From an uncultured Bacteroidota bacterium (GTDB taxonomy: Bacteria > Bacteroidota > Bacteroidia > 2-12-FULL-35-15), in the NCBI GenBank assembly GCA_903881065.1, contig CAIRRW010000262.1, forward strand, positions 1 to 32,367: DNA of 32,367 nucleotides, in the 5' to 3' direction. The stretch's first letter is position 1. The number at the start of each line of letters is the position of its first letter. Below, piece after piece: positions 10,371 through 31,204 of the stretch. Made by a program: the position numbers and the translations under genes. Below the pieces are notes generated by a model. It did not search any database. It was not told the origin of the DNA and saw nothing but the letters and a program-made list of their open reading frames with translations.

Positions 10371-10412
10371 GTTTATAAATGGTATTGAAGTGGAAATTCG
10401 GTTCCAAAAGTT

Positions 10413-10685
10413 CAAAACCAGCTATCGGCAATCCAAAATCAGCTACCTCTGATGCAAAACTGGGTACGTGTGATGCAAAACCAGCTATCGGCAATCCAAA
10501 ACCAGCTACCTCTGATTCAAAACTGGGTAAGTGTGATTCAAAATCAGCTATCGGCGATTCAAAACCAGCTACCTCTGATTCAAAACTGGGTAAGTGTGAT
10601 TCAAAATCAGCTATCGGCCATTCAAAACCAGCTACCTCTGATACAAAACTGGGTACGTGTGATTCAAAACCAGCTATCAGCGATT
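10413..10685. repeat. Tandem array: 13 x 21-bp monomers arranged as a 63-bp higher-order repeat (A-B-C)x4 + A
   Basis: Monomers aligned by eye: A = CAAAAYCAGCTATCRGCNATY, B = CAAAAYCAGCTACCTCTGATN, C = CAAAACTGGGTAMGTGTGATK. Each starts with CAAAA every 21 bp. Degenerate flanking copies (CCAAAAGTT at about 10404; CAAGACTATTCC at 10686). Confidence 0.95.
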
Positions 10686-10746
10686 CAAGACTATTCCTCA
10701 TTTATGTACTGCTGACATTGTAGGGAAAATATAACAGGTCGAAATC

Positions 10747-27502: not shown

Positions 27503-28204
27503 ATGCAGCAGGTTAGGTTTATAGATTTAGGATTGATAGACTATAAGCAAGCCTGGGATTTTCAGGAAAAATTATTTGATGGAATAGTTCAAACTAAAAT
27601 ATCAAATAGAAATTTAACTGAAAACCAACAACAACCAACCAATAATTACCTAATATTTTGTGAACATCCGCATGTTTATACGCTTGGTAAAAGTGGAGAT
27701 GAACAAAATTTACTTGTGAATGAAACTCAACTTAAAGAAAAGCAAGCAACTTATTATAAGATAAATCGAGGTGGGGATATTACATACCACGGTCCCGGAC
27801 AAATAGTTGGTTATCCAATCTTAGATTTAGATAATTTCTTTACGGATATTCATAAGTATTTGCGCTATTTGGAAGAAATGGTTATTCTTACTTTAAGGGA
27901 ATACGGAATCGAATCGGGGAGAAGTGAAGGTGAAACTGGGGTTTGGCTCGATACAGGAAATCCATTAAAAGTCCGTAAAATTTGTGCCATGGGAGTACGA
28001 GCAAGCAGGTGGGTAACGATGCATGGCTTTGCATTTAATGTAAATACTGATTTAGATTATTTTAATAATATTATTCCATGTGGTATTGTCGACAAGTCTG
28101 TAACTTCATTGAATAAAGAGCTTGGCTACGAAGTGAATGAGGAAGAAGTAAAAAATAAAATGAAAAATCACTTTGTAAACCTTTTCCAATGCCAACTTAT
28201 TTAA
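27503..28204 (+). CDS. lipB: Octanoyl-[acyl-carrier-protein]:protein N-octanoyltransferase
   Basis: 233 aa. EHPHVYTLGKSGDEQNLL, NRGGDITYHGPGQIVGYPILDL, KICAMGVRASRWVTMHGFAFNV (catalytic Cys/Lys context). Confidence 0.95.
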   Translation: MQQVRFIDLGLIDYKQAWDFQEKLFDGIVQTKISNRNLTENQQQPTNNYLIFCEHPHVYTLGKSGDEQNLLVNETQLKEKQATYYKINRGGDITYHGPGQIVGYPILDLDNFFTDIHKYLRYLEEMVILTLREYGIESGRSEGETGVWLDTGNPLKVRKICAMGVRASRWVTMHGFAFNVNTDLDYFNNIIPCGIVDKSVTSLNKELGYEVNEEEVKNKMKNHFVNLFQCQLI

Positions 28205-28246
28205 ACATTTATTGAGCTGTTGTGTTGTTGAAAGAAATACAAAATA

Positions 28247-29125
28247 ATGATTGGCAAGTTTTCAATAAAAGATTTAGAGAAATTATCTGGGATTAAGGCT
28301 CACACACTGAGAATATGGGAGCAGAGATATGGAATATTAAAACCAAAACGCACCGATACAAATATTCGTTCGTATAATAATGACGAGCTGAAACTACTAC
28401 TTAATATTACTTTATTATATAATAACGGCTATAAAATTTCAAAGATTGCCGCTTATAAAAAAGAAGAAATTACAGACGAAGTTAATAAAATTGTAAGCAC
28501 ACAAATAAACCCTTGTGAACAGATTGATGGACTCATAATCGCAATGGTTGAAATGGATGAACAACGTTTTGAAAAAATCATTTCAACAAATATTTTACAA
28601 AATGGCTTTAACCAAACTATTGAAAATGTAATTTACCCTTTCCTTAAAAAAATAGGTGTGATGTGGCAAACGGGTTGTGTTAATCCTGCGCAGGAACATT
28701 TTATCTCGAACCTAATTCGTCAGAAATTAATAGTTGCAATTGATGGACAAATAGTAAAAGAAAATGCTGAATCAAAAAAGTTTGTTTTGTTTTTACCTGA
28801 GTTGGAATTACACGAACTAAGCTTGTTGTATTTTAATTATTTATTAAAATCAAAAGGACATAAAGTAACTTATTTAGGACAGTCAGTTCCTATGCTTGAC
28901 CTCCAAAAAGTAATTGAAATTATAAGACCTGATTATCTAGTCTCAGTAATAACACAACCACAAGAGTCAACAGAAGAATATTTTAATAGACTTGCAAAAT
29001 GTTTTCCTAAAGGTCGTATACTAATTTCCGGTTGCCAAGTAGTGGAGAAGAGCATTAAAACACCTAAAAATATTTCGATATTTAAGAATTCGGACGATCT
29101 TCTTTCTTTGTTATCTAATCACTAA
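28247..29125 (+). CDS. MerR-family regulator with C-terminal cobalamin-binding-like (CarH/LitR-type) domain
   Basis: 292 aa. N-terminal SIKDLEKLSGIKAHTLRIWEQRYGILKPKRTDTNIRSYNNDELKLL (MerR HTH). C-terminal MWQTGCVNPAQEHFISNLIRQKL (W...EH pattern of the B12-binding helical bundle) and LPELELHELSLLYFNYLLKSKGHKVTYLGQSVPMLDL (His-containing Rossmann-like B12-binding start). Confidence 0.88.
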   Translation: MIGKFSIKDLEKLSGIKAHTLRIWEQRYGILKPKRTDTNIRSYNNDELKLLLNITLLYNNGYKISKIAAYKKEEITDEVNKIVSTQINPCEQIDGLIIAMVEMDEQRFEKIISTNILQNGFNQTIENVIYPFLKKIGVMWQTGCVNPAQEHFISNLIRQKLIVAIDGQIVKENAESKKFVLFLPELELHELSLLYFNYLLKSKGHKVTYLGQSVPMLDLQKVIEIIRPDYLVSVITQPQESTEEYFNRLAKCFPKGRILISGCQVVEKSIKTPKNISIFKNSDDLLSLLSNH

Positions 29126-29143: not shown

Positions 29144-29180
29144 AGAACACCTTAAACAACTTCTAAGGTGTTCTTCTTTT
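29144..29180 (+). terminator. Intrinsic terminator after the MerR-type gene
   Basis: AGAACACCTTA-AACAACTTC-TAAGGTGTTCT: 11-bp perfect stem, 9-nt loop, then TCTTTTGT. Confidence 0.75.
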
Positions 29181-29235: not shown

Positions 29236-29267
29236 TTGTTTAACGATAATTAAAAATAATTAAACAA
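29236..29267. promoter_or_regulatory. Inverted repeat abutting the -33 element of the ECF sigma gene (candidate operator 2)
   Basis: TTGTTTAA (29236-29243) - N16 - TTAAACAA (29260-29267). Same half-sites and spacer length as the repeat at 29852-29887. Confidence 0.6.
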
Positions 29268-29270
29268 AAA

Positions 29271-29303
29271 TTTGGAGTTTTGTTTAATCTTTGTGTACTT
29301 TTG
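29271..29303 (+). promoter_or_regulatory. Putative Bacteroidota-type promoter of the ECF sigma-photolyase transcript
   Basis: TTTG (29271-29274), 21-nt spacer, TACTTTTG (29296-29303); ATG at 29340. Confidence 0.65.
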
Positions 29304-29339
29304 TTCCACAAATAAATATTAACCTTGTAAATAAGAAAT

Positions 29340-29843
29340 ATGACCGCTATAGAATTTAATCAACAATTGATAAACCAAAGCACGCCTTTAAAAAACTTTG
29401 CATACAGTTTAACACTTAATTCAGAGGAAGCACAAGACCTTGTTCAGGATACATATCTAAAGGCGATAACGTATAAAGATAAATTTGCAGATGCAACCAA
29501 TTTGAAAGCCTGGTTGTATACAATAATGAAGAATACGTTTATTAATACCTATCGTCGCTCTGTTAAAACTCGTCAGGTATTTACACCAACGGAAGATTTG
29601 ACGTTGGTAAAACCAATTGCAGGAACAGGTATGCCTGGTGCAGAATCGCAAATCAATCATAAGCATATTTCCAAAGCGGTAGAAGCATTGGAGGATGACT
29701 ATAAAATTCCATTCACCAGATATTTTGATGGGTATAAGTATAAAGAGATTGCTGATGAACTGGATCTTCCAATTGGGACTGTAAAAAGCAGGATATTTTT
29801 AGCTCGTAAAAGATTAATGAGTGAGTTAAAAGAATTTAACTAA
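29340..29843 (+). CDS. RNA polymerase ECF-type sigma factor
   Basis: 167 aa. Region 2 NSEEAQDLVQDTYLKAITYKDKFADATNLKAWLYTIMKNTFINTYRR. Region 4 YKIPFTRYFDGYKYKEIADELDLPIGTVKSRIFLARKRLMSEL. Confidence 0.95.
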   Translation: MTAIEFNQQLINQSTPLKNFAYSLTLNSEEAQDLVQDTYLKAITYKDKFADATNLKAWLYTIMKNTFINTYRRSVKTRQVFTPTEDLTLVKPIAGTGMPGAESQINHKHISKAVEALEDDYKIPFTRYFDGYKYKEIADELDLPIGTVKSRIFLARKRLMSELKEFN

Positions 29844-29851
29844 AGAAAAAT

Positions 29852-29887
29852 TAATGTTTAATTAATATGTATATATGTTAAACATTA
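29852..29887. promoter_or_regulatory. Inverted repeat between the ECF sigma and photolyase genes (candidate operator)
   Basis: TAATGTTTAA (29852-29861) - N16 - TTAAACATTA (29878-29887), perfect 10-bp arms. Confidence 0.6.
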
Positions 29888-29902
29888 TTTGATTATATAT
29901 TT

Positions 29903-31204
29903 ATGGAAGAAGTAAGTATTTTCTGGTTTCGAAGAGATTTAAGAATTGCTGATAACTCTGGATTATACCATGCTTTGAAAAATAATAAACAGGTGCTGCC
30001 TGTTTTTATTTTTGATACAGAAATATTAAATCAACTGAATAACAAAGAAGATAAACGTGTTGATTTTATTCACTCAGCACTTGCCAAAATAAATAATGAA
30101 TTAATAGAATTTGGAAGTTCATTACTTGTTTTATATGGTACTCCAATGGAAATATTTTCTTCGTTAATAAAAACATATACGGTTAAAAGTGTTTATGCCA
30201 ATCATGATTATGAGCCATATGCCATTTCGAGAGACAAACTAATTTCGAATTTGCTGGCCCAACATTCTATCAAATTTAATACATATAAAGATCAGGTTAT
30301 TTTTGAAAAGGGAGAGGTGACAAAAGATGATGGCTTGCCTTATACTGTTTTTACACCTTATATGAAGAAATGGACGGCATCGTTAACTGATTTTTATTTG
30401 GAGAAATATCCAACCGAGAAATACTATTCTTATTTCTACAAAACAAAACCGTTTGTATTATTATCACTAAAAGATATTGGATTTAAATCTACCGGAATAA
30501 AAATAAAGGGTATAATGGTAGACGAAAATTTGATTCGTAAGTATGATGAAATAAGGAATTTCCCTGCAATGGAAGGCACAAGCAAATTGAGTGTGCACTT
30601 GCGATTTGGAACATTGAGTATTCGAGATCTTGTAAAGAAAGCAAAAGGACTTAACGATCAATGGCTGAATGAATTAATATGGCGCGAATTTTATATGATG
30701 ATATTATTTCATTTTCCACATGTGGTGAAAGGCGCTTTTAAAAAGCAATACGATGCTATCAAATGGATAAACAATGAATCACAGTTTGAACTTTGGTGCA
30801 AAGGTGAAACGGGCTACCCGATTGTGGATGCTGGAATGCGCGAACTTAATACTACAGGATTTATGCATAACCGTGTGAGGATGATAGTAGCAAGTTTTTT
30901 AGTTAAGCACTTATTGATTGATTGGCGTTGGGGAGAGGTCTATTTTGCTGAAAAACTTATTGACTTTGATTTATCTGCAAATAATGGTGGATGGCAATGG
31001 GCGGCTAGTTCGGGATGTGATGCGGCACCATACTTCAGGATTTTTAATCCATATGAACAAACAAAAAGATTTGATCCGGAATTAAAATATATTAGAAAAT
31101 GGGTTCCGGAATTTGAAGAGCTGACTTACCCAAAGCCAATTGTAGAACATAAATTTGCAAGGGAAAGAACACTTGCAACTTATAAAATAGCATTGACAAG
31201 GTAG
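29903..31204 (+). CDS. phrB: Cryptochrome/photolyase family protein, probable class I CPD deoxyribodipyrimidine photolyase
   Basis: 433 aa. SIFWFRRDLRIADNSGLYHAL. FAD-binding GTSKLSVHLRFGTLSIRDL, LNELIWREFYMMILFHFP, GYPIVDAGMRELNTTGFMHNRVRMIVASFLVKHLLIDWRWGEVYFAEKLIDFDLSANNGGWQWAASSGCDAAPYFRIFNP. Confidence 0.96.
   Translation: MEEVSIFWFRRDLRIADNSGLYHALKNNKQVLPVFIFDTEILNQLNNKEDKRVDFIHSALAKINNELIEFGSSLLVLYGTPMEIFSSLIKTYTVKSVYANHDYEPYAISRDKLISNLLAQHSIKFNTYKDQVIFEKGEVTKDDGLPYTVFTPYMKKWTASLTDFYLEKYPTEKYYSYFYKTKPFVLLSLKDIGFKSTGIKIKGIMVDENLIRKYDEIRNFPAMEGTSKLSVHLRFGTLSIRDLVKKAKGLNDQWLNELIWREFYMMILFHFPHVVKGAFKKQYDAIKWINNESQFELWCKGETGYPIVDAGMRELNTTGFMHNRVRMIVASFLVKHLLIDWRWGEVYFAEKLIDFDLSANNGGWQWAASSGCDAAPYFRIFNPYEQTKRFDPELKYIRKWVPEFEELTYPKPIVEHKFARERTLATYKIALTR

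Follow-up and report, generated by a model that had tools for sequence, protein, structure and literature searches.

Inverted TnnACA operators at an ECF sigma factor and photolyase locus in Bacteroidota, and their probable control by a CarH-like B12 photoreceptor

Which protein reads the identical inverted repeats that precede an extracytoplasmic function (ECF) sigma factor gene and a photolyase gene in an uncultured Bacteroidota bacterium, and what would its binding do? The DNA concerned (hereafter the window, meaning the whole 32,367-nt stretch analysed; contig CAIRRW010000262.1 of assembly GCA_903881065.1) carries, on its forward strand, a gene for a 292-aa MerR/B12 regulator of the class I CarH/LitR-like type (28247..29125), assigned by Pfam MerR_1 and B12-binding_2, an alignment to Thermus CarH (CarH_Tt), and an AlphaFold model. 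This is followed by genes for an ECF-type sigma factor of 167 aa (29340..29843; Pfam Sigma70_r2 and Sigma70_r4_2) and a DNA photolyase of class I type of 433 aa (29903..31204; Pfam DNA_photolyase and FAD_binding_7), the best NCBIfam model for the latter being TIGR03556, with a score below its cut-off. The sigma factor is 79%–90% identical to orthologues in 14 other genomes of the family. No anti-sigma gene was recognised adjoining the sigma gene, the control of which may be purely transcriptional, via the operators described below. Elsewhere in the window, at 10411-10688, 21/63-bp units are repeated in tandem (copy number 4.4 for the 63-bp unit, 93% match), and both strands of this array contain open frames.

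An earlier note on this DNA described two copies of TGTTTAA-N16-TTAAACA, and both are present with identical half-sites and the same 16-nt spacer. Operator 1 (distal; 29237..29266) lies 5′ of the sigma gene, and operator 3 (29855..29884) is placed between the sigma stop codon, 11 bp before it, and the photolyase ATG, 18 bp after it. In their longer forms, they read TTGTTTAA-N16-TTAAACAA (29236-29267) and TAATGTTTAA-N16-TTAAACATTA (29852-29887), respectively. A further site absent from the note, operator 2 (proximal; TGTTTAA-N16-TTCCACA, 29281..29310), is located 44 bp from operator 1, and the two bases by which its right arm differs from TTAAACA are those at nn in TnnACA. None of the three is assigned a strand. 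The note also called for a genome-wide search with a control: in the 3.67-Mb assembly of 551 contigs, the exact N16 form occurs only as operators 1 and 3, and when every spacing between 1 and 30 is admitted, TGTTTAA/TTAAACA pairs number four, two of them with N16. Allowing up to two mismatches gave 74 matches in this genome versus 85 for the reversed pattern, which is background; the weight therefore rests on exact matches and on conservation, with background gauged by reversed patterns, other spacings, and genomes lacking the MerR/B12 gene.

Transcription of the MerR gene probably ends at 29144..29174 (forward strand), where a T-rich stretch comes after a perfect 11-bp inverted repeat. This candidate terminator has a loop of 9 and went unlisted in the terminator scan, which allowed loops of up to 8. 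With such a terminator in place, the sigma gene would need a promoter of its own. The Bacteroidota −7 consensus is TAnnTTTG, and the −7 element TACTTTTG (29296..29303, forward strand) lies inside operator 2, touching its right arm; counted from where the proximal operator starts, 59 of 75 orthologous loci have TAnnTTTG at offset 14 or 15. The proximal operator thus overlaps an element of the target promoter, as assigned by consensus, and a protein bound at the tandem operators would cover the sigma core promoter. A TTTG had been noticed shortly after each right arm. The first (29271..29274, forward strand), between operators 1 and 2, stands as a plausible −33 element, separated from the −7 box by a 21-nt spacer and weakly conserved, but the second (29888-29891) is only 11 nt from the photolyase ATG and is not kept in relatives. 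For the photolyase gene, no convincing −7 box could be identified. Operator 3 has a counterpart after the sigma gene in 9 of the 14 other family loci, where it precedes the photolyase gene in six and folE in two (L056 and L066).

The conservation of these sites was followed in 80 loci (0.94 Mb in total) gathered with the window's MerR/B12 protein as query, from named genomes (Algoriphagus, Belliella, Roseivirga, Marinoscillum, and others) and metagenome bins. TGTTTAA/TTAAACA pairs at an offset of 23, corresponding to N16, number 69 copies in 51 of the 80 loci, with no other offset exceeding 10 copies and no offset peak for any of three control palindromes. Sites with up to two mismatches are nearly all intergenic and lie around the MerR–sigma–photolyase cassette. 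Of 75 orthologous loci, 64 have a tandem pair of operators, 42–46 bp apart, 5′ of the sigma gene, which identifies the sigma promoter as a two-operator promoter. The comparison of intergenic regions in relatives, which the note had suggested as a check, hence finds motif, spacing, and tandem layout kept, and the sites are almost certainly operators of a shared regulator.

Presence of the motif follows presence of the MerR/B12 gene. N16 accounts for 24 of the 40 palindromes listed (spacers 8–24) for genomes of the family that encode a MerR/B12 homologue, as against 2 of the 35 listed for family genomes without one, where the spacer distribution is flat. Across 295 genomes of the class, with homologues called at E ≤ 1e-30, the exact motif is found in 142 of 184 genomes that have the MerR/B12 gene and in 10 of 111 that do not. 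Its density is 0.432 versus 0.034 per Mb, respectively, compared with 0.040 and 0.020 per Mb for the reversed control. The Fisher value of 1.9e-32 is inflated by the relatedness of the genomes, despite which the contrast is large; 42 of the 184 genomes with the gene have no exact site. In seven family genomes without an orthologue of the sigma factor, the exact motif lies next to MerR/B12, crtI-like, and PTPS/folE-like genes, the MerR/B12 paralogue there being roughly 40% identical and the crtI-like genes belonging to carotenoid clusters. Gene names at these sigma-less loci were read from translated sequences, with Pfam support for equivalents in L236, L237, and L138. What the sigma–photolyase loci and the carotenoid loci examined have in common is the MerR/B12 gene.

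The half-site itself points in the same direction. Over 160 sites, the T, A, C, and A of the right arm are present at 0.99–1.00, and 83 of the 95 right-arm departures from the palindrome affect the nn of TnnACA. The published CarH half-site is TnnACA, within nnnnTnnACAn (PMC9304148), and the present operators carry it. In the CarH operators studied, 11-bp direct repeats stand in tandem and are occupied by tetramers or dimers (PMC9304148); here, inverted half-sites at a 23-bp offset dominate instead, and no exact half-site at a same-strand 11-bp offset was seen in the 80 loci. A single TTAAACA also lies 46 bp 5′ of the MerR gene (28201..28207, forward strand). The note had remarked on this half-site as perhaps due to chance; it is kept in 11 of 15 family loci, at −46 to −58, yet it overlaps the lipB stop codon, and it is possibly a weak autoregulatory site. 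TTGTT is often found about 22 bp further on from this half-site.

The MerR/B12 protein is laid out as a winged-helix DNA-binding domain, a four-helix B12 cap, and a Rossmann-type C terminus. MerR_1 and B12-binding_2 both score over cut-off, giving the order of an N-terminal MerR winged helix and then a B12-binding domain that is expected of CarH and class I LitR photoreceptors. Its cobalamin residues, W140-x9-E150-H151 and H189, correspond by alignment to W131, E141, H142, and H177 of CarH_Tt, which are reported as key residues for adenosylcobalamin (AdoCbl) (PMC11796333), and all four are invariant in 39 homologues. The AlphaFold model (pLDDT 87) has full-length CarH, 5c8d, as its best PDB match (E 1.1e-15), with a large rmsd that stems from domain arrangement and an identity of about 20% in the fold alignment. 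Against the NCBIfam CarH equivalog NF052513, the protein scores 97.7 bits where the cut-off is 400, and it is accordingly termed 'CarH-like' rather than 'CarH'. Very probably, this protein is the regulator of the operators. The note proposed that one regulator binds both sites and named the adjacent MerR/B12 protein as the candidate; this gains support from the class-wide co-occurrence, the near-confinement of the sites to these loci, the paralogue loci without the sigma gene, and the match to TnnACA.

Dark repression and light release of the sigma and photolyase promoters by the MerR/B12 protein, acting as a photoreceptor-repressor of the class I CarH/LitR type, is the likely mode of control; for binding, repression, light and B12 dependence, and oligomeric state, this proposal draws on sequence. 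In the dark, AdoCbl-bound protein would occupy the inverted TnnACA half-sites of TGTTTAA-N16-TTAAACA. Operators 1 and 2, 44 bp apart, would then flank the ECF sigma promoter, with the −7 box hidden, and operator 3, directly 5′ of the photolyase gene, would be occupied too. Light would cleave the Co–C bond of AdoCbl, the protein would leave the DNA, and the sigma factor and photolyase would be expressed. The ECF sigma factor may then extend the light response.

Other readings of the motif have to be weighed against binding by the MerR/B12 protein. AT-rich DNA often contains single half-sites, and degenerate matches here stand at background, so that chance palindromes might be considered, as might RNA hairpins or terminators, given that the photolyase site is able to form a hairpin of 11 bp or so. 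Conservation, the specificity for N16, and co-occurrence with the MerR/B12 gene refute chance, while fold z-scores of just −1.7 and −1.3 and a terminator scan that gave no terminator-like sites speak against hairpins and terminators; taken together, this explanation is scarcely credible. Alternatively, the motif might be the promoter of the ECF sigma factor itself, with TGTTTAA as −35, the N16 spacer, and TTAAACA as −10, leading to autoactivation and activation of the photolyase gene. The spacer and the distance to the start codons fit an ECF promoter, and the motif does lie 5′ of both the sigma and the photolyase gene. The two arms are, however, one sequence inverted, unlike the −35 and −10 elements to be expected, and the proximal site contains a housekeeping TAnnTTTG box in most loci, as counted above. 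Moreover, the motif is not restricted to genomes with the ECF sigma factor: its exact form in the seven family genomes lacking a sigma orthologue (E ≤ 1e-20), where other ECF sigma factors are possible, largely refutes this reading. Since it stands there beside MerR/B12, crtI-like, and PTPS/FolE-like genes, the common element is the MerR/B12 regulator and not the ECF sigma factor, and a sigma promoter is very improbable.

Co-occurrence is also compatible with a co-inherited partner, and the motif could in principle be bound by another conserved dimeric regulator linked to these loci. Against this stand the MerR/B12 gene, as the one gene shared by the sigma–photolyase and carotenoid loci examined, and the agreement of the half-site with the published CarH TnnACA (PMC9304148), which make another regulator improbable. 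A different question is whether the MerR/B12 protein, if bound to these operators, is an activator, or responds to B12 rather than to light. Many MerR proteins are activators, and a MerR-like protein of Vibrio cholerae is reported as a possible suppressor or enhancer (PMC5241685). Here, however, the operator lies on the −7 box and not between −33 and −7 as with MerR activators, the residues holding the light-reactive AdoCbl are conserved, and photolyase, rhodopsin, and carotenoid-type genes are among the neighbours, so that activation or a response to B12 instead of light is unlikely. Repression in the dark by the CarH-like protein is thus retained as the preferred reading.

Several known systems resemble this arrangement in part. 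In Streptomyces coelicolor, the MerR/LitR regulator LitR is encoded beside the ECF sigma factor LitS, and a light-induced cluster contains a photolyase gene; the present locus shares the regulator adjoining an ECF sigma gene and the photolyase in the cluster, the system being actinobacterial and likened by gene layout. Canonical MerR activators such as MerR and BmrR bind a dyad between the promoter elements, with about one helical turn between half-sites. They share the fold of the DNA-binding domain and the palindromic sites with the present system, whereas the operators here lie over the −7 box and span about two turns. CarH of Thermus thermophilus, Bacillus megaterium, and myxobacteria has the same MerR-type winged helix and AdoCbl domain, W-x9-EH, and lower-axial His, together with a TnnACA half-site and an operator that lies across elements of light-induced promoters (PMC8156234, PMC9304148). 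In CarH, the 11-bp direct repeats typically number three or four, whereas the half-sites here face outward, inverted, 23 bp apart, and the operators come in tandem pairs that are mostly 43–46 bp apart. Class II LitR proteins of Pseudomonas (PplR/PmlR2) are comparable by sites that are inverted (TGTnnA...TnnACA), with two per promoter, and by a regulon with photolyase and folE (PMC9758184); PplR-dependent light-inducible genes include those for photolyase and FolE (PMC9758184). The Pseudomonas operator is TGTACA-N12-TGTACA (PMC9758184), as opposed to TGTnnA-N18-TnnACA here, which is six bp wider and in tandem. In the literature searched, from which subscription papers and preprints fell outside, so that an earlier description is possible, neither a Bacteroidota CarH operator nor binding, expression, or light data for any Bacteroidota CarH were found.

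Genes beside the class-wide sites give hints of a wider regulon. Pfam tallies for 58 such genes, which are plain counts and not enrichments against random genes, comprise 25 ECF sigma, four rhodopsin, four PTPS, four MerR/B12, three CrtI-type oxidoreductase, two FolE, seven DUF4397, and one fasciclin gene. The DUF4397 proteins are of a secreted type and are encoded beside the operator in several families (L179, L181, L184, L186, L195, L230, and L241), with the fasciclin gene in L256. Bac_rhodopsin genes lie directly 3′ of the operator in L198, L248, L254, and L260, which suggests rhodopsin under light/B12 control. In the window's own genome, a search run without a positive control returned no rhodopsin match, and the two crtI-like genes carry no such operator, the best candidates having at least three mismatches. 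Genes for GTP cyclohydrolase I and 6-pyruvoyl-tetrahydropterin-synthase-like proteins adjoin the operator at L056:7638, L066:7567, L044:6949, L045:6293, and L049:7104, and products of such pterin-type genes could provide a pterin/folate antenna for photolyase.

With outward-facing TnnACA half-sites that alternate at intervals of 20–23 bp, roughly two helical turns, along some 74 bp of DNA, four half-sites could be reached by one tetramer. The balance tips slightly towards a light regulon spanning the class in Bacteroidota, in which CarH-like B12 photoreceptors would act through this operator layout on ECF sigma, photolyase, carotenoid, pterin, rhodopsin, and secreted DUF4397/fasciclin genes. 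Its inverted, two-turn-spaced, and tandem geometry is absent for CarH-type operators from the literature searched. The searchable motif predicts genes under a B12-based photoreceptor in many Bacteroidota, including rhodopsin and carotenoid genes, and light sensing in Bacteroidota would thereby be linked to the availability of vitamin B12.
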